Shown one piece after another: positions 52,293 to 63,134 of a DNA stretch of 64,000 bases. The position numbers were made by a program, and so were the translations under genes. This DNA comes from Polyangiaceae bacterium. Lineage in GTDB: Bacteria; Myxococcota_A; Polyangia; Polyangiales; Polyangiaceae. The stretch is from positions 62,001 through 126,000 of the forward strand of contig JANXOF010000036.1 in the NCBI GenBank assembly GCA_025353725.1. The letters are read 5' to 3'. The notes under the pieces were generated by a model, which saw nothing but the letters and a program-made list of their open reading frames with translations, did not search any database and was not told the origin of the DNA. Each line of letters opens with the position of its first letter. Position 1 is the first letter of the stretch.

Positions 52293-53344
52293 GCGAAGTC
52301 TTCAAGGATCGTCTCAAGCGACTGGCGCCAAAGGTGGGTTATCCGCTCTTTTATCTCTTTGCTCTGGTTCTTTTTCTCTCGCTTACGTTTCCGTATGACA
52401 AGCTTAAAGAACGAATTGTCACGACGTTCAATGCGCAGCAGCGCGCGTCCTCGACCCCGACAGAGCTCCAGATCGAGGAGCTCGACTCGTCGTGGCTTTT
52501 GGGTATCAAAGCAAAAGGCGTAAAGCTCACCGCGCCGTCCAGCGATCCGGCCAAACCGTCGCTCGAAATCAAGTTGGACGAAGTGCGCGGCCGCATCTCG
52601 CTGCTTGGCTTGCTTGTGGGGAATAAGGACGTCAGCTTTCGTATCGAGGCGTTTGGCGGGCTTATTAAAGGCACGTTCGAGGACACGGGGAAGGAGCGCA
52701 GCGTCGACGTCACGTTTGAAGACGTCGATGTGAGCAAAGTTGACGCTATCGCGGCAAATGTAGGCTTTCCGCTCGATGGAAAGCTCGGAGGTACGGTGAA
52801 GCTTCAGCTTCCCGAAGGCAAAGCCTCAAAAGCTATTGGCCCGGTGAACCTCGAGATCAAGGACATGTACGCGGGGAACGCGACGGAGTTGACGGTCAAA
52901 ACCCCACTCGGTCCGTTCACGCTACCCCGACTCAAAGTGGGCAGTTTCGTGGTCACGGGCGAAGCGAAGGACGGCATCATTAAGCTCACGAAGATGGGAG
53001 CTTCGGGCGGCGACGTCGACGTGACAGGTGACGGTCGCGTGCAGCTTCGGGAGGTTGCGACGGACGCGCATCTCGAGGTGGCTCTCAAGTTTAAGATCAA
53101 TGACAGTTACCGCAACAAGAACGACAAAACGAAAATGCTTTTCGGCTCGCCGGGGAGCAAAGAAAAGCCCATGCTCGAAATGGACGCACGCATGGCAAAG
53201 TCCAAGACCGCGGATGGTTTCTACGGCCTGACAGTCGGCGGTACCCTTGGAAAGCCGGACGTTCAGCCTGCTGCGGGAGGAGTGGTCCCCGGCATCAACT
53301 TGAGTGGGAGCACGTTTGGTCGCGGCCCGATGGTTCCCAAATGA
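52289..53344 (+). CDS. gspN: Type II secretion protein GspN
   Basis: A 351-residue protein with an N-terminal membrane helix (YPLFYLFALVLFLSLTFPY) and an AsmA-like beta-strand-rich periplasmic domain (EIKLDEVRGRISLLGLLVGN, KVGSFVVTGEAKDGIIKLTKMGASGGDV). GspN is found in a subset of type II systems and its role is unclear. Start ATG overlaps the gspM stop (ATGA); its own stop overlaps the next gene. It closes the recognisable gsp block. Confidence 0.8.
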   Translation: MSEVFKDRLKRLAPKVGYPLFYLFALVLFLSLTFPYDKLKERIVTTFNAQQRASSTPTELQIEELDSSWLLGIKAKGVKLTAPSSDPAKPSLEIKLDEVRGRISLLGLLVGNKDVSFRIEAFGGLIKGTFEDTGKERSVDVTFEDVDVSKVDAIAANVGFPLDGKLGGTVKLQLPEGKASKAIGPVNLEIKDMYAGNATELTVKTPLGPFTLPRLKVGSFVVTGEAKDGIIKLTKMGASGGDVDVTGDGRVQLREVATDAHLEVALKFKINDSYRNKNDKTKMLFGSPGSKEKPMLEMDARMAKSKTADGFYGLTVGGTLGKPDVQPAAGGVVPGINLSGSTFGRGPMVPK

Positions 53345-54138
53345 GTACGATGACAACGCCACGACTCGTCGGGGTGATTCATCTGCCGCCCTTGCCCGGG
53401 AGTCCTCGTTCTACGATGACGGCGTCGGCTTGTGCGCGCGCCGCCGCAGACGACGCGCGCTTCTTGGCCGCGGCTGGCTACGACGCTGTGGTGGTCGAGA
53501 ATTTTGGCGATGTGCCTTTTTTCGCCTCGAAAGTCCCGCCCGTGACGGTCGCCGCGATGACCGCGTGCGCGGTGGCAGTCCGCGCGGCTGCCCCGAGCCT
53601 CACACTCGGTATTAATGTATTGCGCAATGATGCCGAAGCCGCGCTCTCCATCGCCGTATGTGCAGAGGCCACGTTTGTCCGGGTCAACGTGCTTACGGGG
53701 GCGCGCGTAACGGATCAGGGGATCGTTCAAGGCGAAGCCGCCGCCACGCTGAGGCTTCGCCGGTCGCTCCTCGCGGAGGGAGTGGCCCTATGGGCAGACG
53801 TCGACGTCAAGCACTCGGCGCCACTGGGAGCCGCGCGCTCACTCGCCCAAGATGTGTCGGACCTCACGGCGCGGGGCTTGGCAGACGTGGTTCTGGTCAC
53901 CGGGGAGGGAACGGGAAAAGGCGTCGACCTTGAGACCCTCGCGACGGTCAAACGTGTTTCGGGAAAGCCCGTGCTCGTGGCCAGTGGTGCGGCACTATCG
54001 TCGCTCTCGGCGCTCGCTTCACGGTGCGACGGCGTGGTCGTTGGAACTGCACTTCGCCGCGGTTTCGTCGCCGGTGAGCCGATCGATGCCGAGCTCGCGC
54101 AGGAGTTCGCGCTGGCGTTTCGTCACGCCTTTGCTTAG
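53341..54138 (+). CDS. BtpA-family TIM-barrel protein
   Basis: A 265-residue protein that begins MSTMTTPRLVGVIHLPPLPGSP and continues YDAVVVENFGDVPF, FVRVNVLTGARVTDQGIVQG and VASGAALSSL, the hallmarks of the BtpA family (a TIM-barrel group in which a cyanobacterial member affects photosystem I). The catalytic role is not established. Its ATG overlaps the gspN stop (ATGA), so it is coupled to the secretion operon, although it has no known link to secretion. Its TAG abuts the stop of the convergent TPR gene. Confidence 0.85.
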   Translation: MSTMTTPRLVGVIHLPPLPGSPRSTMTASACARAAADDARFLAAAGYDAVVVENFGDVPFFASKVPPVTVAAMTACAVAVRAAAPSLTLGINVLRNDAEAALSIAVCAEATFVRVNVLTGARVTDQGIVQGEAAATLRLRRSLLAEGVALWADVDVKHSAPLGAARSLAQDVSDLTARGLADVVLVTGEGTGKGVDLETLATVKRVSGKPVLVASGAALSSLSALASRCDGVVVGTALRRGFVAGEPIDAELAQEFALAFRHAFA

Positions 54139-55149
54139 CTAGAAGGCTCCGCTAACGCCCGCCCAAGTGGGTCCGACGTCGGCGCGGAAGCTCCGACCCG
54201 ACGTCGCTGAGGGCGTGGCTTCGGAAGACGTTTTCGACTTCAGTACCAGTCCGACGATGCCGGCTCCGACGCCGACGGCGCCGACCACAAATGCGACCGT
54301 CGCGACCGTGCCCAACGACTTTGCCGAATCGATGTCACTTTGGCGCGAGGGAGGACACGTGTTGTTCTGGCAGTCTTTCTTGATGTCGCTCACTTTCGCG
54401 ATACTGGCGAGTCCCATTACCGTGCCCACGGCGATGCCTGCGGCACCTAACCCGAAGCCGCCGTAGAGAAGCACGCCTGGCAACGGTGACGTGTCGGTCG
54501 GCGCGCGCGCGGGCTGGACGACGGCGCGAGCCTGCGGCAGTGCCGTCGCCTTCAGATCGAACGTCACTGTCTTTGACTCGCGCTCCGCGACGTCGACGAG
54601 TTGCTTTTTTTCGACGGAGCCCGAGCGAGCGATCACGACGTGACGGCCTGGGTTGACCTTACGCGGAGCCTGCACCGCTGCCGCGGCGACGACTTCGCCG
54701 TCGAATGTCACGACGGCGCTTTGCCCGGGCTCCACGTTGGCGATGACCACTGCGATCGAGGGCAATCGCGCGCTCAAATCTGTATTCAAGCTCTCCGCAG
54801 ACACGCGTGCCGCCGTGAAGGGGGCAGGCTCTTGTTTCGCTGGCAGTGGTAACCGCAGGACGCGCGCGAGCGTTTCGCGCGCTTCGAGCAAGAGGCCAAG
54901 GCTTACTTGAGTGCGTGCGACGTCGATTCCTGTCGTCGGTACGTGCATGATGGCATCGGCCGCCTCATAGCTCTTCAGGGCGCCTTTGAAGTCGCTCTTG
55001 TCACGCTTTGCATCGCCTTCGTCCATCAAGTTGCGCGCGGTTTCGCGGTCCGACGGCGTCGTATCCGCCGAGGCAGGCAACGCAGAGATCGTGAGCAGCG
55101 CGGAGGCCGTGAGCATGGCTATCGAGACGTGACGAAAAAGGCGCTGCAT
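54139..55149 (-). CDS. Secreted TPR/PEGA-like protein paired with a kinase (copy 1)
   Basis: A 336-residue protein: signal peptide (ending PASADT), a TPR-like helical region (NLMDEGDAKRDKSDFKGALKSYEAADAI), a PEGA-like beta-domain (VVTFDGEVVAAAAVQAPRKVNPGRH), and two C-terminal membrane helices (LYGGFGLGAAGIAVGTVMG and VAFVVGAVGVGAGIVGLVL) bracketing a Cys pair (DCQNNTCPPS), ending in ...GVSGAF. It starts 6 bp after the kinase stop. A clear homologue at 62088 sits beside another kinase. Function unknown; envelope localisation is inferred. Confidence 0.75.
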   Translation of the reverse strand: MQRLFRHVSIAMLTASALLTISALPASADTTPSDRETARNLMDEGDAKRDKSDFKGALKSYEAADAIMHVPTTGIDVARTQVSLGLLLEARETLARVLRLPLPAKQEPAPFTAARVSAESLNTDLSARLPSIAVVIANVEPGQSAVVTFDGEVVAAAAVQAPRKVNPGRHVVIARSGSVEKKQLVDVAERESKTVTFDLKATALPQARAVVQPARAPTDTSPLPGVLLYGGFGLGAAGIAVGTVMGLASIAKVSDIKKDCQNNTCPPSRQSDIDSAKSLGTVATVAFVVGAVGVGAGIVGLVLKSKTSSEATPSATSGRSFRADVGPTWAGVSGAF

Positions 55150-55155
55150 AAATGT

Positions 55156-56874
55156 TCAGAAGCCCCGCTCGGGCGACTTTCCTGTACCGACGACGGCTGG
55201 GGTCGTGGGTTTCGGCTTGGGGTTTACGGGAGGGGCGGGCGGCACGACGCGATGTGTAGCGATGCCAAGGACCGGGGCCGAAGGGCTCGCTTGCGGAGTA
55301 GGAGCGGGGACCTGCACCGTGGCCACCGCAAGGCCTGTGGTGGTGGCTGGCGTGAGGACGACCGCGCGTTCAGACCCCGCCGCGCTCGTCGCACTAGTTA
55401 CGCCTTCCGGGCTTCCGCGCGGCGTTAGTTCGGCACTCTCCTGGGGCAGAAGAACGCCTGCGGTGCCGCCCGCGGGTCTCCTCTCCCCTGGGCCCGACGC
55501 GTTGACGATAAGGAAGGCGCCAACGATGCCGACCGCCAAGGACAGGCCTAAAACTGCTGCGGCGAGGAGACGTCGCTTGTGCGTAAGCTCGACGCTCGAA
55601 GGTTCTCGCGGAGGAAACTCCATCGCGGCAGATCCGAGCGTCGCGGAGCTCGTTGCACTCGGGATCTCCGCAAGCTCGAGTCGACCCACCGTATCGCCGC
55701 GCGCAGACTGTGCAGACTGCATGGATGGTGCCGAGGGCCTCGACCGGGCCGACGGGGTGGATGCGAGCTCCGTCTCCGAAGAAAGCGCCAGTTGCGCGAT
55801 GCGCGCCGCGATGGGCGTAGAGGGCAGGTTCACGACGCCTGACGCATCCACGGGCATCGACATGCTTGAAGCGCGGTCGCTATCGCGGGCGTACGCGGCT
55901 GCAAGCGCTGTGTCGACGGCGCGCTTGCGGGCAGCCTTGCGGTCGGCGAGTAGATGCCCCGTATAGGCCGCGACGACCGCACTCGACGTGGCCTCGCCGA
56001 TCTCGACAAGGCAGGCTTCGAGCGCAAGATTCAGTTCGAGCGATGTCGCGAACCGCGCGTCGGCTTCGTAGGCGAGTGCGCGCTCGATGACGGCCCGAAT
56101 GGGAGCCGCGACGTAGGCAGGAACAGGGGCTGGAATCACACCGCTCGTAAGCATGTGCAGTGTAGCGACCTCGTTCGGCCCATCGTAAGGCGGGACACCC
56201 GCGAAGAGTTCGTACAGTATCGCGCCGAGTGCCCAGACATCGGCGCGGTGATCGATACCTCGCCCGAGCGCTTGCTCTGGAGCCATGTACCGAATCTTGC
56301 CTTTCAACTGACCTGCACTGGTTTCTTGGGAAACGCGGTCGCGCGCTTTGGCCACGCCGAAGTCGATAATCACTGTCGCGCCCGAGTTCGAGATAAGGAT
56401 GTTTTGCGGAGAGACGTCGCGATGAACCACACCAAGGGGCGTGCCATCGCGCTCCCTCAAAGTATGCGCCGCATGAAGGCCCGCGGCCGCGTCCGCACAC
56501 ACGCGAAGCGCGATGCCTGGCGGAACTCGCCGCTTCGCTTGTTCTGCTGCGCGAGCGACCTTTGAAAGCGAGTCTCCGTCGACCCACTCCATCACGATGA
56601 ACGTGCTCTCCCCTTGTTCGCCTACGTCAAGAATGCGAGCCACATTCGGGTGTTCGATGCGCGAGGCGATGCGTGCCTCATCGAGGAACATCTCCTGAAA
56701 GCGCGGGTCTTGCGAGTACTGCGGCAAGATCATTTTGACCACGACGAGCCGCTCGAATCCTCGTCGGCCACCGAAGCGCGCAAGCCAAACGGAGGCCATG
56801 CCGCCGTAGGCCAGCGGGCAGAGCAATTCGTACCGGTCGAGTCGGTGACCGGGCTGAAGCTGAGCCGGATCCAT
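55156..56874 (-). CDS. Pkn-type serine/threonine kinase with HRDVSPQN catalytic loop
   Basis: A 572-residue protein with an N-terminal kinase domain: glycine loop LAYGGMASV (~21-29, first Gly replaced), Lys47 (VVVKMIL), HRDVSPQN (151-158; the usual Lys after HRDx is replaced by Ser), DFGVA (171-175) and APE motif (YMAPEQ). A variable linker follows, then a membrane helix (~455-480) and an Ala/Pro/Thr-rich tail. The HRDVSPQN loop is a variant I associate with myxobacterial kinases. ATG at 56874 is chosen because the kinase sequence begins there. It directly precedes the TPR/PEGA gene. Confidence 0.88.
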   Translation of the reverse strand: MDPAQLQPGHRLDRYELLCPLAYGGMASVWLARFGGRRGFERLVVVKMILPQYSQDPRFQEMFLDEARIASRIEHPNVARILDVGEQGESTFIVMEWVDGDSLSKVARAAEQAKRRVPPGIALRVCADAAAGLHAAHTLRERDGTPLGVVHRDVSPQNILISNSGATVIIDFGVAKARDRVSQETSAGQLKGKIRYMAPEQALGRGIDHRADVWALGAILYELFAGVPPYDGPNEVATLHMLTSGVIPAPVPAYVAAPIRAVIERALAYEADARFATSLELNLALEACLVEIGEATSSAVVAAYTGHLLADRKAARKRAVDTALAAAYARDSDRASSMSMPVDASGVVNLPSTPIAARIAQLALSSETELASTPSARSRPSAPSMQSAQSARGDTVGRLELAEIPSATSSATLGSAAMEFPPREPSSVELTHKRRLLAAAVLGLSLAVGIVGAFLIVNASGPGERRPAGGTAGVLLPQESAELTPRGSPEGVTSATSAAGSERAVVLTPATTTGLAVATVQVPAPTPQASPSAPVLGIATHRVVPPAPPVNPKPKPTTPAVVGTGKSPERGF

Positions 56875-56993
56875 CCCGTCGAAAGAATACCCCGGTCCTG
56901 AGCAAGTGGGCAGGAAGAACGCCATCCCGATGCGCAGTCGCGAGCGGGCGAGGTACCCGCGATGGGCGCCGAGGTACGAGACGGTAGGCGCGA

Positions 56994-57824
56994 TCAGTGC
57001 CGAACGGCGAGGATGGCCTGGACCCGCTCGGGCGCGAGTCTCGCGGATCGCTCGCGCAATCGCGCGAGAAGCTCGTCTTTGCTTGGCGTCGTCAGCGAAG
57101 GAGCAGTCAAAAGCGACGGATCTGTCAATTCAGCCATCGGCAAAGGCGCCTGTCGCGACGGAGGGCCGCTGTCGCGTGTGGGCAAGCTCTCGCTTACCTC
57201 AGACGTCATGACAGGCAACGGCGGAGGCGTGAGCGCAGGTGCCCTGCCCGACGGCGGGACGCGGACTCCTGTACGCCGCGCGTTCACACGGGCCATTTCG
57301 TTCGCCTTTTCGCGCGCGTTTGCGCGTTCATTGGCGACCGCGGTCTCCTGGTCCGCTTGGGTGCTCAGAGGCCCGATTCCGTTGCCCGTCGACAGTGGGG
57401 CCACGGACGGGGGGGGCGGAGTCGAAGCCGTGAGTGCGTCGGCGAGCGCTCCGTGCGGCAGTGCGGATGGCCTTGACGACGCCCCACTCGCCTCGGCCTG
57501 ACGCGCCTCGCGAAGTGACGTAGCGCGATCGACGATGGCCTTGGAGCGCGGGTCGAGTCTCGTAAAACGGAGCGTGAGCCCTGGCTGACCGCGAAACGCG
57601 TTCTCCTTGTGCGCAAGGACGCGCCCCTCGCCGCGGAGCAACGTGATTCCTTCGGCGAGCGCAACCTCGAATCGGAGAATCACGCCTGTCGGACGCGGAT
57701 GCGCGCCCACCAAAACGATGCTCGTTTTTCCTATCGTTTCGAGCTCGTGTTCGAGCAATTCGTCTTCGCTTTGGTGCGGACGTACGACGCGGACCGCGAC
57801 TGGCGGACGGAGGTTCTCTGCCAC
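56994..57824 (-). CDS. PilZ-like domain protein
   Basis: A 276-residue protein. The N-terminal ~100 residues (LETIGKTSIVLVGAHPRPTGVILRFEVALA, GEGRVLAHKENAFRGQPG) form a beta-barrel of the PilZ kind often seen in Myxococcota; the standard R-x3-R c-di-GMP motif is not evident, so binding is uncertain. The rest is Pro/Ala/Ser-rich with a short helical C-terminus (KDELLARLRERSARL). The start is uncertain: GTG at 57824 or TTG at 57842. Divergent from purD with a 38-bp gap. Confidence 0.55.
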   Translation of the reverse strand: MAENLRPPVAVRVVRPHQSEDELLEHELETIGKTSIVLVGAHPRPTGVILRFEVALAEGITLLRGEGRVLAHKENAFRGQPGLTLRFTRLDPRSKAIVDRATSLREARQAEASGASSRPSALPHGALADALTASTPPPPSVAPLSTGNGIGPLSTQADQETAVANERANAREKANEMARVNARRTGVRVPPSGRAPALTPPPLPVMTSEVSESLPTRDSGPPSRQAPLPMAELTDPSLLTAPSLTTPSKDELLARLRERSARLAPERVQAILAVRH

Positions 57825-57862
57825 GCGTGCATGGTACCGCAAAATCGTGTTAGTTCGGCCTC

Positions 57863-59182
57863 ATGTCTGTCACGACGCAGTCTCGGCCTCGACCCGGACC
57901 TCGACCCGGACGCCAGCGCATTCTCATCGTCGGCGCAGGAGCGCGGGAGCACGCACTCGCCCGAGCGCTGTCCGGGCACGAGATCCTTTTCGCGCCTGGC
58001 AACGCGGGCACGGCGCTCCTCGGTCGAAATGTGACCGTCGACGCGACCGACATCGACGGCCTCGTCGCACTTGCCGAGGACGAACGGTGCGACCTCGTGG
58101 TCGTCGGGCCGGAGGGGCCCCTTACGCTCGGACTTGTGGACAGGCTCGCCGAACGTTCGATCGTAGCCTTCGGTCCCACACGCGCCGCGGCTCGACTCGA
58201 AGGCTCGAAGGCGTTTATGAAGGACTTTCTGCGTCGCCACGCCATTCCTACCGCGGCTTTTGCCTTATTTACCGAACCGAATGCGGCCAAGGCGTACGTG
58301 CGTGCGGCGGGGCGACCGCTCGTTGTCAAAGCGGACGGTCTTTGCGCCGGCAAAGGCGTTGTCGTCGCGAACACGACGGACGAAGCGCTCGAAGCGATTG
58401 AACGCATGATGGTCGCGCGTGAGTTCGGCGCGGCCGGTGACACTCTGGTTATCGAGGAGATCTTGCCGGGTGAAGAGGCGAGCTTCCATGTCGTCTGTGA
58501 CGGGACGCGCGGCCTCGCGCTCGTCGCGGCGCAAGATCACAAACGTGTTTTCGCTTTTGATCGCGGCCCCAACACGGGCGGGATGGGCGCCTACGCTCCC
58601 GCGCCTGTCGTGACTCCGCAGATCCACGACGCCGTAATGCGCGAGGTCGTCGAGCCGACGTTGCGCGGCATGGCTTTGGAGGGCGCGCCGTTCCGAGGTG
58701 TACTCTTCGTCGGTCTCATGATCGACGAGGGCAAGGCGCGGGTCCTCGAGTTCAACGTGCGCTTCGGAGATCCCGAAATGACGGTCCTCGTCCCGATGTT
58801 CGACGGCGATTGGCTCTCCCTCCTGGAGGGCTCGGCGCGCGGTGATCTCTCGCAGGTCTCGGGGGGCACCAAAAGTGGCGCCGCGCTTTCCGTCGTCATG
58901 GCGTCGGAGGGATACCCGGCATCGCCAGCGTTAGGCGACCGCGTTGAAGGTCTCGACCGCGAGCTTCCTGCAGGCGCATTTATCTACCACGCAGGAACCC
59001 GCGCGCGTGGCGAGGAGGTCATCACCTCGGGCGGGCGCGTCCTGACGGTAGGCGCGTACGGAGCTTCGTTTGTGGCTGCGAGAAACGTCGCTTACGAAGC
59101 CGTGTCGCACATCCACTGGCGCGGTGAGCACCACCGGGAGGACATCGGCAGCCGGGCTCTGTTGCGCGAGCGTTCCATGTGA
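57863..59182 (+). CDS. purD: Phosphoribosylamine-glycine ligase
   Basis: A 439-residue ATP-grasp enzyme making glycinamide ribonucleotide, step two of purine synthesis. Motifs: ILIVGAGAREHALARAL, VVVGPEGPLTLGLVD, VKADGLCAGKGVVVA, EEASFHVVCDG, DRGPNTGGMGAYAPAP, LEFNVRFGDPE. Length is normal for the family, with ~17 extra N-terminal residues encoded by a 12-bp direct repeat (CTCGACCCGGAC twice), giving RPGPRPGR. Start ATG at 57863. It appears monocistronic, between two minus-strand genes. Confidence 0.95.
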   Translation: MSVTTQSRPRPGPRPGRQRILIVGAGAREHALARALSGHEILFAPGNAGTALLGRNVTVDATDIDGLVALAEDERCDLVVVGPEGPLTLGLVDRLAERSIVAFGPTRAAARLEGSKAFMKDFLRRHAIPTAAFALFTEPNAAKAYVRAAGRPLVVKADGLCAGKGVVVANTTDEALEAIERMMVAREFGAAGDTLVIEEILPGEEASFHVVCDGTRGLALVAAQDHKRVFAFDRGPNTGGMGAYAPAPVVTPQIHDAVMREVVEPTLRGMALEGAPFRGVLFVGLMIDEGKARVLEFNVRFGDPEMTVLVPMFDGDWLSLLEGSARGDLSQVSGGTKSGAALSVVMASEGYPASPALGDRVEGLDRELPAGAFIYHAGTRARGEEVITSGGRVLTVGAYGASFVAARNVAYEAVSHIHWRGEHHREDIGSRALLRERSM

Positions 59183-59206
59183 GCGTTCGCGCGTGTACGC
59201 ATGCGA

Positions 59207-60406
59207 CTACGGTGGGTTCGTCGAGCCGCCGTCGACCTGGGTTCCGTTGCCGCTTTCCGCGACAGAGCCTGCGTCGGCCTTCGGCTCGACGACAGGAACA
59301 GCGAGGACGTGGAGCGTGCGTCGGTCGTCGTCGTCGCGGCCTCCGTCGGGCAGTTTCGCGCCGGGATCGCCTAGCAGAAGAAGCGCGTAGTTCGAGGCGG
59401 CCGCAAAGTACGAGGGAGGGACGTCGCGCGGTGACGACGACTTTTGGATTTTCGCGAGGGACTCATCGAGCACAGTGAGCACCGTCTCGGGACCGTTCGC
59501 ACCGCCGTCTGCAGCCCTGCCTACCAAACGAACACGTACGCCGAGCGTCTCGTACACGCCTGCGTCGCTGACTTCGAACGCCAACCGTACGGGTTCGACG
59601 GGCGAAGCATTTCCGAACAGCTTGGGGTTCGTCGTCACCTCGGCCTGTTCGCTGTTGGCGGCCGCTATCGCCCCGAAGCTCACCACCAAATCACGGCCCG
59701 CGCGGAGCGTTTCGAGAGGCTGCGAAAGGTTGACAACCTGCGCCGGGAGCGTAGACGCGCTCGGGCGGTTGGTCCCCGCAAGCGTCACCTCTTGGATGCT
59801 TAGGTTCGATTTTGTCGGTTCCCAATCGGCGCCGCACTCGGCGACGGTGTGTTTCCTGAGGGGAACATCGAAAGGGCAGCCGCGCACGACGAGGAGGTGC
59901 ACGCCGCGCGAGAGGTCTGCGTTGATCGTTCCTAAACTCAACGCGGAGCTGCCCCAGGTTCCAGTCAAGAGCTGCCCACACGTCGGCCCGGGACCGGCTA
60001 CGCCAAAGGCTGGGTAGAGCGCGCGAATCGCGGACTCTTCAAAAAGAAAAACCTCACCCGCGGCGCCGCGGAGAGGACCTAAGCGAACGGCGCTTCCGAC
60101 CTCGACGCCGACCACATTCGCCTCAGGCATGGCCTGCGAATCGGGCTGCGGGCGACGATCAAGCTCGTTTTTGAAGCAAAGGCGAAACGGCTGCGACCCG
60201 GCGGCATGCACGAGGATCACGGCGTTGTCGGCGGGACCGAACGCCTTGCCGTCGCTCGCGCCTGGAGCTTCCATGCTGGCGCCGAACCCGCCATCCGCAG
60301 GCGCGGCGGTGCGTAGGCCCGTCGCAAAGTCAGACCCGGCGCAGGCGGAGGTGAACGCCGCAGTCGCGAGAGCGGTCGTGACGAAGGCAACGAAAACACG
60401 TTTCAT
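59207..60406 (-). CDS. Lipoprotein of unknown function
   Basis: A 399-residue protein with a signal peptide and lipobox (FTSAC). The mature part appears beta-rich: VILVHAAGSQPFRLCF, VGVEVGSAVRLGPL, RGVHLLVVRGCP, and later VEPVRLAFEVSDAGVYETLGV. Three conserved-looking cysteines are in the middle (LCF, TCG and GCP), suggesting disulfides. The C-terminal ~40 residues are acidic and low-complexity. I do not recognise a domain family; DUF4397-type adhesion proteins are the closest resemblance, but not firmly. It converges on purD with a 24-bp gap. Confidence 0.6.
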   Translation of the reverse strand: MKRVFVAFVTTALATAAFTSACAGSDFATGLRTAAPADGGFGASMEAPGASDGKAFGPADNAVILVHAAGSQPFRLCFKNELDRRPQPDSQAMPEANVVGVEVGSAVRLGPLRGAAGEVFLFEESAIRALYPAFGVAGPGPTCGQLLTGTWGSSALSLGTINADLSRGVHLLVVRGCPFDVPLRKHTVAECGADWEPTKSNLSIQEVTLAGTNRPSASTLPAQVVNLSQPLETLRAGRDLVVSFGAIAAANSEQAEVTTNPKLFGNASPVEPVRLAFEVSDAGVYETLGVRVRLVGRAADGGANGPETVLTVLDESLAKIQKSSSPRDVPPSYFAAASNYALLLLGDPGAKLPDGGRDDDDRRTLHVLAVPVVEPKADAGSVAESGNGTQVDGGSTNPP

Positions 60407-60607
60407 CGTATCGACGAGCCTAGCATTCGTCGGGCCATGGCTACGGAGCCGTTGCGCGCCGCGTTTTCCGCAAGCCGCGCGCGTTGACGCGGACGCGCCT
60501 ATGATCGCCGAGTCGCGGCCGTTGTGCGCTGGGCCGAGCTGCGCCAGGCCCTCATTTGGGGCCTAAAGTAGTTGCGGACGAACGCGAGCTCACGCATCCT
60601 TCACCGC

Positions 60608-62101
60608 GTGGGTGAGGTCTTCGTGGGGATGATGGTGACACCGAGCGTGCAGCTCGTGCGCCCCCTTGGCGAGGGCGGCATGGGCGCCGTTTGGGTCGCC
60701 GACCACCTTGCGCTGCGGACCCAGGTCGTCGTGAAGTTTATCGCGAGGGGGCTATCGGCGGACAAAGAGGCGCTCGATCGATTTTCGCGCGAAGCCGCCG
60801 CGGCCTCGCAAGTAAAGAGTCCGCACGTCGTACAGACGTTTGACCACGGTGTGACCGAGGCGGGCGTTCCCTACATTGTCATGGAGCTACTCGAGGGGTG
60901 CGACCTCGGGGTCTACCTCGAACAAGAACCGAACATTCCACCCCTTCGCGTGATCGAAATTCTAAGGCAGCTCGCGCGCGCCCTGGACCGCGCGCACGAG
61001 AAGGGCATTGTCCATCGCGATATCAAGCCAGGAAATGTCTTTTTGACGGACTTGGGGGGCAAAGACAAAGACAGAGGTGACGTGTTTGTAAAGCTGCTCG
61101 ACTTCGGTATTGCCAAAGGAGTTGATGTCGCCGGCTATGGCGGTCGCCTTGACAGCGGTACGCGAACGGGGGCGATGGTCGGGTCGCCATTCTACATGAG
61201 CCCCGAGCAAATCCTGGGCTCGAAGGACGTCGACTATCGTTCGGACCTTTGGAGTGTCGGTGTTCTGGCCTTTGAGATGCTTACGGGAAAAAAGCCGTTC
61301 GACGCGGAGACGATGGGCGGTCTAGCAATACGGATTCACATTGAACCGCTCCCTCTTCTGAGCGCGGTGAATGCAGCGCTTCCCGTCGCACTCGACGGTT
61401 GGTTCGCTCGCGCATGCGCGAGAGATGCGAGCGGGCGCTTCGGGTCCGCAAAGGAGATGACCGACGAGCTCGCAGAGGCGTTCGGGCGTGAGCCGCTCGC
61501 GTCGTCTGCGTCTTTTGACGCTCGTCTCGACGCTCCTCTCGATTCTCCTCGCGCGCTCGTCACGAAGCTCGGGCCCGACGCTCTCGACCCACACTTGGCG
61601 CACGCCGCGACGCTCGCGACAAGCGCCGTGACCGAAGCTGGCGCCGCTCTCGAGATTGCGCCACGCCTTTTGCGCGGTCGTATAATCCTTTTGCTTGCCG
61701 TCGCCGCGACGGTTCCTCTCGCCGGATACGCGGGGTTCCGCGCACTGCTAAGGCCCCACGTACCGACGGCTCTTGTCCCGATGGCACCCACGGCTCCCCT
61801 AGCTCCGATGCCTCCGTTTGGCGTGACGGCCACGGGTGGCGGTACGGGAGACGCCATCGTCTCGCCCATGCCTGGAGCTGTCGCGCGCGTAGTTCCGACG
61901 TCGCTCGCCGACGTCGCGCCTCCGCCGCGAACGACGTCGTCGGGTACCGCGTCTCTCGTCGTGGGCAAAGCGACGGCGGCCACGCACGCTTCTCCTCGCG
62001 CAGAGGTTCCTCGGTCGCCCGCGAGTGCGGCACCGTCCGCGACGGTTCCGGAAACGCTAGTTTCGCCGCGCCCAGCGATGAGCGGGCATGACATTTTCTA
62101 G
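60608..62101 (+). CDS. Pkn-type serine/threonine kinase
   Basis: A 497-residue protein: kinase domain with GEGGMGAVW (21-29), catalytic Lys43, HRDIKPGN (136-143), DFGIAK (165-170) and MSPEQ; a membrane helix (RIILLLAVAATVPLAGYAGF) and a Pro/Ala/Thr-rich tail. Start: GTG at 60608 places VGEVFVG just before the kinase core, as is typical; ATG at 60629 is an alternative. A kinase insert (DLGGKDKDRGDVF) follows HRDIKPGN. Its 3' end overlaps the TPR/PEGA gene by 14 bp. Confidence 0.88.
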   Translation: MGEVFVGMMVTPSVQLVRPLGEGGMGAVWVADHLALRTQVVVKFIARGLSADKEALDRFSREAAAASQVKSPHVVQTFDHGVTEAGVPYIVMELLEGCDLGVYLEQEPNIPPLRVIEILRQLARALDRAHEKGIVHRDIKPGNVFLTDLGGKDKDRGDVFVKLLDFGIAKGVDVAGYGGRLDSGTRTGAMVGSPFYMSPEQILGSKDVDYRSDLWSVGVLAFEMLTGKKPFDAETMGGLAIRIHIEPLPLLSAVNAALPVALDGWFARACARDASGRFGSAKEMTDELAEAFGREPLASSASFDARLDAPLDSPRALVTKLGPDALDPHLAHAATLATSAVTEAGAALEIAPRLLRGRIILLLAVAATVPLAGYAGFRALLRPHVPTALVPMAPTAPLAPMPPFGVTATGGGTGDAIVSPMPGAVARVVPTSLADVAPPPRTTSSGTASLVVGKATAATHASPRAEVPRSPASAAPSATVPETLVSPRPAMSGHDIF

Positions 62102-63134
62102 CCTCCCACGGAACCTCCGCGTCGCTGCGGTAGGCATGGTTTTCATAGCCGTAACAGGTCACGCCGCCCCCGCGTCGGCGCAACGTGGCGCGTCTGACAT
62201 CGCGTCCGCACGCCAGCTCTACAACGAGGGCATCGACTTGCGCGAGAAGGGGGATTTGCGAGGAGCGCTCGAAAAATTTCGCGCGGCCCACGCGCTGGGG
62301 AACACGCCGCTCACCGGAATCGAATTGTGTAAACTGCACGCGCTTCTGAGCCAACCCGTCGAGGCTCGCGAAGTGTGTCTCGGTGTGGGGCGGATTCCGC
62401 CACTCGTGGGTGAGACGTCACGTTCGGCCGACGCGCGACGCGACGCAGCCCGCGTAGCGGACGAGATGACTTCAAAGTTCTCTTCGGTTCGTCTCCAGGT
62501 AAGTGGCGTGCCTGTGGGGTTCGAGCCGACGGTGATCGTCGACGGTGCGCTCATACCTAATGCGGCTCTTGGCGAGCTTCGCGCCGTCAATCCCGGTCAT
62601 CACGACATCGTCGCGCGCATTGGCGACGGTCGCGAAACGCGAGTCGCTATCGAGGTCGCGTCGGGCGAGAGCAAGACGGTGTCGCTTCCGCTGGTCGCCG
62701 GACCCTCCTCCCTCGCACCTGTCGCCGTCGGTTCGGGCGCGCGTGTCGATGAGCCGCGTCGTCGTCCGAATGGGCTCGCGACGGCGGGCTTCGTCGCGGG
62801 CGGCGTGGGCGTAGCGGCCGGCATAGTGACCGGTCTCGTCGCGTTGTCCGCGAAGTCGTCGCTCGCGTCCACGTGCACGTCGAAGATTTGCGGACCCGAG
62901 GATTACGATGCGCTCGACAGCGCCAAGCGGTGGGGCACGGTCTCCACCGTCACTTTCATTCTTGGCGGCGCGAGCGCCCTGATGGGGCTGGTCGCGATCT
63001 TTGTCGCGCCCACACAGGCATCGCAGTCGAACTCACGGATTCTGCCGCGCGACGCCGATGCGCGTTCGGCCGCTAAGGTGAGCGTTGGTGCCTCCGTCGG
63101 ATTGGGAGGCGTAGGGTTTCATGGCGCGTTCTGA
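62088..63134 (+). CDS. Secreted TPR/PEGA-like protein paired with a kinase (copy 2)
   Basis: A 348-residue protein, homologous end to end with the protein at 54139: signal peptide (ending PASAQR), TPR-like helices (LYNEGIDLREKGDLRGALEKFRAAHAL), PEGA-like domain (VGFEPTVIVDGALIPNAALGELRAVNPGHH), two C-terminal membrane helices around a Cys pair (TCTSKICGPEDYDALDSAK), and a terminal Phe (GVGFHGAF). The ATG at 62088 overlaps the kinase stop region by 14 bp. Function unknown; the repeated pairing suggests it works with the kinase. Confidence 0.75.
   Translation: MTFSSLPRNLRVAAVGMVFIAVTGHAAPASAQRGASDIASARQLYNEGIDLREKGDLRGALEKFRAAHALGNTPLTGIELCKLHALLSQPVEAREVCLGVGRIPPLVGETSRSADARRDAARVADEMTSKFSSVRLQVSGVPVGFEPTVIVDGALIPNAALGELRAVNPGHHDIVARIGDGRETRVAIEVASGESKTVSLPLVAGPSSLAPVAVGSGARVDEPRRRPNGLATAGFVAGGVGVAAGIVTGLVALSAKSSLASTCTSKICGPEDYDALDSAKRWGTVSTVTFILGGASALMGLVAIFVAPTQASQSNSRILPRDADARSAAKVSVGASVGLGGVGFHGAF

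Follow-up and report, generated by a model that had tools for sequence, protein, structure and literature searches.

The window analysed here, a stretch of 64,000 nucleotides from a Polyangiaceae bacterium (assembly GCA_025353725.1, contig JANXOF010000036.1, positions 62,001 to 126,000), harbors two gene pairs in which a Hanks-type serine/threonine kinase is followed by the gene of a predicted secreted protein, hereafter the partner, with a tetratricopeptide repeat (TPR) domain and a PEGA-like domain. Dozens of paralogous pairs of the same architecture occur in the genome, the paired kinases carry no recognised sensor domain, and the last residues of the kinase covary with the partner, mainly with its TPR domain. 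We consider it probable, though by a modest measure, that the module works as a split receptor kinase: the TPR domain, located in the periplasm, would bind the C-terminal peptide of the kinase in trans and serve as its sensor or activator.

Kinase-partner pairs in the window and in the genome

Kinase P0003 and partner P0001 form pair 1, and kinase P0004 and partner P0002 form pair 2 (Table 1). An earlier note on this DNA had described both pairs, one with a gap of 6 bp and one overlapping, and had taken the partners to be alike. Both pairs were found as described, on opposite strands, and the two partners align end to end with 32% identity (E 2e-36).

The source genome comprises 6.62 Mb in 98 contigs and contains 152 Pkinase matches, 150 of which were used. 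Searches of the genome with one window partner each returned 19 and 22 matches. A partner profile, built from 23 of these proteins without reference to kinases, returned 108 matches, and 64 loci were kept once secondary pieces and weak, mostly TPR-only matches had been dropped. By coordinates, 41 of these loci have a kinase domain on the same strand within 2.6 kb upstream, five have one only downstream, and 18 have neither. Genes were called in 118 regions of this genome around kinases and partners. For at least 37 of the 147 called kinase genes, a quarter, the next gene on the same strand is a profile match at E below 1e-10; one of these matches is separated from its kinase by 863 bp, and a doubtful case (L068, E 2e-4, after a kinase fragment) was excluded. 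Because our home-made gene caller misses some kinases (for example, at L201 and L204), pair counts from called genes are lower bounds.

A strict count on open frames was restricted to partners above 140 bits. In the regions examined, a same-strand kinase immediately precedes 23 of 32 own-genome partners, against a chance expectation of about 2.5% (assuming about 6,000 genes; P about 3e-30), which rules out chance or plain gene density as the source of the pairing. With duplicates removed, the count over all sources is 85 of 148. Besides the own-genome partners, it covers six of six named relatives of P0001 (for two of them, the kinase was read in two frames), 12 of 35 partners from an initial set of relatives, 33 of 58 from three additional genomes, and 11 of 17 matches that were the best of their genome. 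Thirteen own-genome partners above 100 bits are unpaired; four of them lie one gene away from a kinase, and one belongs to a reversed pair. Reversed pairs, with the partner first and the kinase within 200 bp, occur in this genome at C73 (L124, g9 and g8; the kinase ends IELGY) and at C86:10174-10770.

For comparisons, 95 pairs were assembled (37 own and 58 from relatives) with a partner E below 1e-10; pairs from relatives also had a kinase above 80 bits and a gap below 300 bp. The core set holds the 75 pairs with a partner above 140 bits, and 61 non-redundant pairs remained after removal of partners closer than a distance of 0.55; these cut-offs were not tuned. Among the 95 pairs, 33 overlap and 41 are spaced by 0-50 bp. 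Across the phylum, 71 of 112 sampled genomes yielded a partner match at E 1e-10. When one best match was taken from each of 30 genomes, gene calls placed a same-strand kinase directly upstream in 10 of 12 genomes of the same family and in 3 of 18 others. The named relatives of P0001 come from Labilithrix, from metagenome-assembled genomes of Myxococcales and Deltaproteobacteria, and from Minicystis rosea. In four orthologous loci (L198-L201), a kinase with the end DRGF precedes the partner; the corresponding window kinase ends ERGF.

Domain content of the paired kinases

Both window kinases are of the Hanks type, as they exceed the Pkinase cut-off (PF00069, 31.7 bits) with 114 and 134 bits and contain the HRD and DFG motifs. 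They share 30% identity and differ in the catalytic loop (HRDVSP in P0003 and HRDIKP in P0004). Scores against the PASTA-type PknB model NF033483 were 211.8 and 245.3, below the cut-off of 450, the match extending only over roughly the first half of that model, and a Pfam scan found no PASTA repeats in either kinase.

All 37 paired kinases of this genome match the kinase domain. Beyond overlaps among kinase-fold families, the only other Pfam family in them is PEGA, found in two (best E 1e-6). They typically have one membrane helix and an outer tail rich in Pro and Ala, with a median length of 114 residues (measured in 35 of 37), 69% of them P, A, S, T, G, K, or R; the outer tail of unpaired kinases has a median of 148 residues and 62%. 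Among the 61 unpaired kinases with a membrane helix, some carry TPR, AAA, FGE-sulfatase, cNMP-binding, 7TM, or TonB domains, with one to five members per family in the 25 of 35 families listed. Many, perhaps most, of the unpaired kinases may likewise hold nothing but a kinase domain, so this contrast between paired and unpaired kinases is indicative only. Two loci of this genome, L094 (C54) and L125 (C22), have two or three kinases in a row with similar Cys-containing C-termini. Among the 61 unpaired membrane-helix kinases in general, two have an FGE-sulfatase domain.

Architecture and topology of the partner

AlphaFold models were made for both partners from the same eight input sequences, with each partner as the target in turn. 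The models concur: an N-terminal hydrophobic helix leads to TPR-type helices and a beta domain, a linker rich in Pro connects these to a pair of long helices, and the chain closes with a C-terminal hairpin whose last residue is Phe. The TPR region has five helices (residues 32-128 in P0001 and 35-128 in P0002) with a predicted local distance difference test (pLDDT) score mostly of 84-97 and one block at 67. The beta domain occupies the PEGA position (residues 131-198 and 132-201) with a pLDDT of about 87-94, and both models have low confidence from the linker onward, including the two helices (226-308 and 229-306). The common plan proposed in the earlier note stands for the TPR-type helices, the Cys pair, the two helices, and the final Phe; its PEGA-like domain is modelled as a beta domain, and the Pfam family (PF08308) matches 4 of 23 paralogues at E up to 0.01 (best 6e-4) and neither window partner. 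The N-terminal helix looks like a signal peptide, with A-x-A ahead of the mature part.

TPR proteins are prominent among the structural matches. The best five VIA-align rows for the TPR region of P0001 had Z of 10.1-10.9 over 85-96 residues at 1.3-2.6 A, a range in which the tool warns of a common helical arrangement, and Foldseek returned TPR matches for the P0002 model. The matches include 1elw, 4cgu, 3fwv, and 6fdp, and several are TPRs solved with C-terminal peptides. Pfam TPR_2 is found in 7 of 23 own paralogues, P0002 itself falling below the threshold (15.4 against 27). A search of the P0001 beta domain for sequence homology to solved structures gave none (best E 1.4). No named family covering the whole partner was found in NCBIfam or in Pfam, the latter offering TPR, PEGA, and weak others (such as CarboxypepD_reg in 3 of 23). 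A terminal F or W is present in 62 of 75 strong paired partners, compared with 45 of 687 other called genes.

Between the two helices, two Cys are present in 61 of the 75 core partners, none in 13, and one in a single partner. This nearly all-or-none pattern is compatible with a disulphide located outside the cytoplasm, or with a metal site. The loop between the helices is not rich in Lys and Arg (mean 4.5 K/R and 5.6 D/E), and hydrophobicity is lower than in the kinase helix for the first helix in 96% and for the second in 91% of the 75 pairs. Given the weak helices, the loop without positive excess, and the Cys pattern, a hairpin in the outer membrane is possible, and the partner parts that the earlier note took as cytoplasmic may lie outside the cytoplasm.

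These observations bear on the suggestion of the earlier note that the partner is a substrate or output of the kinase, phosphorylated at a cytoplasmic tip of the helical hairpin. By topology logic and the models, a cleaved signal peptide combined with two helices across the inner membrane would place the tip in the cytoplasm. However, the Cys pattern, the composition of the loop, and the weak hydrophobicity of the helices beside those of the kinases speak against it, as does the kinase-paired partner L016 (L085_g2), whose long C-terminus, by reading, appears beta-strand-like in place of the hairpin. We regard a substrate role as very unlikely.

Some variants of the partner were also seen. Of the 95 paired partners, 37 have a Cys at both column 61 and column 83 of the TPR model and 15 at column 83 alone, whereas a Cys at 61 never occurs without one at 83; these residues, mostly found with kinases of the xxR end class described below, look like a disulphide across the TPR. 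Three kinase-paired partners (L085 g2, L269 g1, and L286 g1) have a longer C-terminus after the TPR and PEGA parts, and their kinases end D-x-G-Y. In L085_g2, this C-terminus reads as beta-barrel-like.

Covariation between kinase C-termini and partners

The earlier note had named two findings that would count against a module, namely, that the pairing is rare or that kinases and partners do not co-evolve. The pairing is frequent, with a kinase upstream at 41 of the 64 profile loci, and the two proteins of a pair do co-evolve (in 24 strong own-genome pairs, Mantel r was 0.43 with a permutation P of 0.0005); as neither result refuted it, its reading is supported. The covariation of the kinase C-terminus is an addition to that reading.

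The ends of the 95 paired kinases recur as an xxR[HKRED] type (PFDRRH, LSDRH, LPDERH, FGGRR), a DxG[FY] type (DRGF, DLGF, DIGY), a DP[YFW] type (DKDPYAP), and a YKxECL type. The last was seen in the own genome at L076, L099, L118, L129, L141, L143, and L162, where some partners have a shortened or absent TPR. The distance between the last six residues of the kinases correlates with the distance between the partners (r 0.44 for the 24 strong own pairs and 0.37 for the 61 non-redundant pairs; P 0.0005, 2,000 permutations), and the correlation stays at 0.43 and 0.35 when the kinase-domain distance is partialled out. A control stretch at positions -24 to -19 gave -0.05 and -0.02. In an inward scan of the 61 pairs, r was 0.37 at the end, 0.07 at 8 residues, 0.03 at 10 residues, and 0.08-0.12 at -26 to -40. 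The ends of own paired kinases are also nearer to those of relatives' paired kinases than own unpaired ends are (median 0.47 against 0.22, P 8e-8; P 1.5e-5 against unpaired kinases with a membrane helix), no doubt partly due to orthology.

As 33 of the 95 pairs overlap, the kinase end could look partner-specific merely because it shares nucleotides with the partner start or its ribosome-binding site. This artefact is rejected and hardly credible, for on mature partner columns alone r was 0.40 in non-overlapping pairs (n=40), 0.39 at gaps of at least 15 bp (n=27), and 0.34 at gaps of 40 bp or more (n=16, P 0.008, with 0.12 and P 0.19 for the control stretch).

Among the partner regions, the kinase end correlates most with the TPR (r 0.42), followed by PEGA (0.23), the helical hairpin (0.22), and the C-terminus (0.14). 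Partial correlations were 0.365 for TPR given PEGA, -0.03 for PEGA given TPR, and 0.035 for the hairpin given TPR. The kinase domain, in contrast, correlates nearly evenly with TPR (0.39), PEGA (0.37), and hairpin (0.34), so the preference for TPR is specific to the kinase end; against this baseline, the TPR excess over PEGA has a bootstrap P of 0.022. Twelve of the 14 partner columns with z above 6 for the end class lie in the TPR (50 pairs, classes 1-3). Where the nearest neighbour by kinase and the nearest by TPR differ, the kinase end sides with the TPR in 39 cases to 16 (P 0.003); the same test gave 26 to 29 for PEGA and 32 to 21 for the hairpin (P 0.17). The PEGA-like domain is ruled out as the part that tracks the kinase end by its partial r and its neighbour count. 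When own cognates were ranked from relatives, with close relatives excluded, the area under the curve (AUC) was 0.61 for TPR (P 0.0005); PEGA, at 0.53, was not significant, and the control stretch gave 0.49.

Co-inheritance alone offers another explanation. The pair would be duplicated as a unit, and the kinase end would be conserved for another reason, such as protection from proteases or a degradation tag, without being bound by the partner. The kinase domain does correlate with the partner (r 0.43 in the own core and 0.44 in the non-redundant set), about equally across its regions, and the end is perhaps the sole part of the outer region conserved enough to retain a signal. Four results argue otherwise: the end correlates only slightly with the kinase domain of the same protein (r 0.13-0.14 in the own core and non-redundant sets, 0.07-0.22 over all sets), it prefers TPR over PEGA as the kinase domain does not, it follows the TPR at discordant neighbours, and Minicystis rosea mixes the types. 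The partner of that species (L202) is nearer to P0001 (152 bits, 38%) than to P0002 (115 bits, 34%), its kinase has 52% identity to P0004 against 31% to P0003 (two frames in the record, kept apart), and the frame directly before the partner ends DHGF, an end of the P0001 type. By sequence, it thus appears to be a natural swap, one kinase type with the partner and end of the other. We hold co-inheritance alone to be unlikely, yet deserving of weight.

Several results weigh against docking of the kinase end on the TPR, in addition to the domain contrast qualified above. A directly upstream kinase is missing, within the limits used, from 9 of the 32 strong own partners, and it is present in only 12 of the 35 partners of one relative set. 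The ends of 18 of the 95 paired kinases (10 of the 75 core) fall outside all classes, and the 24 own pairs keep a weak r of 0.12-0.16 at 8-12 residues inward. Relative to the kinase-domain baseline, the TPR does not significantly exceed the hairpin (P 0.077). In the own genome alone, the neighbour test gave 14 to 7 for TPR (P 0.19) and 15 to 5 for the hairpin (P 0.04), and in the large set the control stretch leans the same way (34 to 21, P 0.10). The ranking of cognates from the TPR is weak though significant (AUC 0.60-0.61), and the hairpin also ranks them above chance (AUC 0.55-0.57; 0.57 with P 0.0025). The effect is therefore real but modest when pairs are taken singly, and the hairpin may contribute to it. 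Moreover, co-inheritance of pairs is not fully separable from selection, and the covariation tests draw on one dataset.

Partners at three loci without an upstream kinase (L126, L287, and L315) are preceded by a non-kinase protein with a short cytoplasmic part, one membrane helix, and a Pro/Ala-rich tail, the ends being of the IVRDNPF, IVRDTPF, and GIVNDVQF type. Such non-kinase proteins of the same plan before partners fit a general tail-and-socket arrangement. Single-pass proteins of this kind were seen directly upstream of partners at L126 (g2), L287 (g1), L315 (g1), L148 (g2), and L307 (g2), with a conserved N-terminal stretch, for example LSADDADRLAEQFRPSWEED; L148_g2 sits between a kinase and a partner.

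Proposed mechanism and comparison with known systems

Computation shows the gene pairing, the common architecture, the lack of recognised sensor domains, and the covariation of the kinase end with the partner, mainly with its TPR. A split receptor kinase is preferred on these grounds, together with the prominence of TPRs among the structural matches and the RtkS-PpkA precedent described below. For the docking, the periplasmic location, the activation step, the signal, and the targets, we infer the following course. The kinase would contribute its catalytic domain in the cytoplasm, a single membrane helix, and, beyond the inner membrane, a disordered tail rich in Pro and Ala, and the adjoining gene would supply the sensor as a separate secreted protein. 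In the periplasm, the TPR of the partner would bind the last 6-7 residues of the kinase. Distinct C-terminal peptides would be matched to distinct TPR subtypes, and in this way dozens of parallel pairs would be kept from cross-talk. The signal might reach the partner as a ligand on the PEGA-like domain or as a change in the envelope or in partner assembly; the partner would then cluster or reposition kinases, leading to autophosphorylation.

A more far-reaching version, which we put forward tentatively as a rather doubtful extension, is an envelope-spanning family with a peptide code. The partner would sit in or at the outer membrane through its Gly-rich hairpin, with a disulphide tip facing outward (or, in some paralogues, through a beta-barrel-like end), the kinase tail would cross the periplasm, its last 6-7 residues would pick the TPR, and the same sockets would take non-kinase membrane proteins.

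The nearest precedent is RtkS-PpkA. In Serratia, the periplasmic protein RtkS, the product of a linked gene, is reported to bind PpkA at its periplasmic domain and to be required for PpkA stability (PMC6082577). That system, like TagR-PpkA of Pseudomonas, shares with the present pairs a transmembrane Hanks kinase and a separate protein from a linked gene, periplasmic binding being presumed here. It differs in being one pair that serves the type VI secretion system, whereas dozens of paralogous pairs occur here; moreover, PpkA binds through residues 363-482 of its periplasmic region, whereas our proposal assigns this role to a short motif at the C-terminus of a Pro-rich tail. The top Foldseek match of the P0001 model is 9k1u, 'Rtks and Ppka complex' (E 6e-4). 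This entry is not among the best 50 Foldseek matches of P0002, nor in the VIA-align results, and homology to RtkS-PpkA is therefore not claimed.

The same precedent suggests that the partner could be a stabilising subunit, which guards the outer part of the kinase against degradation and carries no signal of its own. The need of PpkA for RtkS (PMC6082577) and the close gene spacing, which suggests joint expression, are in line with this. The partner seems more elaborate than a stabiliser would need (TPR, beta domain, hairpin, and C-terminal motif), and its anchor part differs among paralogues; neither point is decisive, and we judge this explanation improbable.

Other known systems are more distant. 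PknS of Xanthomonas and kinases of Planctomycetota and myxobacteria are reported to combine a cytoplasmic kinase with a periplasmic TPR in cis (PMC13147305, PMC11032199). There the TPR lies within the kinase chain, whereas in the present pairs the next gene encodes it in a separate, predicted secreted protein; TPR_12 within the kinase chain was found in 5 of the 61 unpaired membrane-helix kinases of this genome. Hop, PP5, and RPAP3 are eukaryotic chaperone adaptors, and with the Hsp70/Hsp90 tails they resemble our proposal in the TPR fold and in the notion that a TPR recognises a linear C-terminal motif. PASTA kinases (PknB/Stk1) are alike in the kinase domain, the single membrane helix, and the outer C-terminal part, and differ in the PASTA repeats, which were not found in the window kinases.

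To the earlier note, the module looked undescribed, and this holds among the titles and abstract openings listed in our literature searches, in which no such kinase-partner pairs are described. A review citing Perez 2008 states that myxobacterial kinase genes often have a conserved local context (PMC8538405). A phosphatome paper reports very few kinase-phosphatase pairs and leaves co-organisation with substrate genes possible (PMC2887360). Myxobacterial Ser/Thr kinomes rank among the largest in bacteria, with 317 kinases in Sorangium So ce56 and 353 in Minicystis (PMC8436480).

Features of the two loci

Table 1. Features of the two kinase-partner pairs in the window
Feature	Coordinates	Strand	Basis
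Kinase 1 (P0003), Hanks-type Ser/Thr kinase, 572 amino acids; N-terminal kinase domain, one membrane helix, Pro-rich tail	55156..56874	-	Pfam Pkinase 114 bits; HRD and DFG in translation; helix at residue 439
Membrane helix of kinase 1, predicted, residues 439-457	55504..55560	-	Hydropathy window
SPERGF, C-terminal end of kinase 1, suggested as docking motif	55159..55176	-	Translation; covariation
Partner 1 (P0001), predicted secreted, 336 amino acids; start 6 bp past the kinase stop	54139..55149	-	Coordinates, alignment, AlphaFold
TPR domain of partner 1, residues 32-128, where the peptide is proposed to bind	54766..55056	-	AlphaFold; VIA-align Z about 10 to TPR proteins; covariation
PEGA-like beta domain of partner 1, residues 131-198	54556..54759	-	AlphaFold; PF08308 in 4 of 23 paralogues
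Gly-rich helical hairpin of partner 1, residues 226-308, Cys pair between helices	54226..54474	-	AlphaFold, low confidence
C-terminal beta hairpin of partner 1, residues 321-336, last residue Phe	54142..54189	-	AlphaFold, low confidence
Kinase 2 (P0004), Hanks-type Ser/Thr kinase, 497 amino acids	60608..62101	+	Pfam Pkinase 134 bits
Membrane helix of kinase 2, predicted, residues 354-372	61667..61723	+	Hydropathy window
SGHDIF, C-terminal end of kinase 2, suggested as docking motif	62081..62098	+	Translation; covariation
Partner 2 (P0002), predicted secreted, 348 amino acids; 14-bp overlap with kinase	62088..63134	+	Coordinates, alignment, AlphaFold
TPR domain of partner 2, residues 35-128	62190..62471	+	AlphaFold; Foldseek TPR matches
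PEGA-like beta domain of partner 2, residues 132-201	62481..62690	+	AlphaFold
Helical hairpin of partner 2, residues 229-306, Cys pair between helices	62772..63005	+	AlphaFold, low confidence
C-terminal beta hairpin of partner 2, last residue Phe	63084..63131	+	AlphaFold, low confidence

Pair 1 is flanked (window positions 53341-59182) by a BtpA-like gene, an unnamed gene at 56994-57842, and a purD-like gene, the names being given by reading the translations. The same three genes also adjoin the pair in the Labilithrix and Myxococcales loci L198-L201, as far as these loci extend.

Significance

Myxobacterial kinomes include many kinases with no sensor that can be recognised. In this genome, a quarter of the called kinase genes (37 of 147) have a candidate sensor in the adjoining gene, and the last 6-7 residues of the kinase are a putative specificity element. 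If the split receptor reading is true, inputs would be assignable from sequence, and the rules of pairing would be testable with short peptides. Two-component systems use specificity residues, and insulation within a large kinome would gain a mechanism comparable to them.

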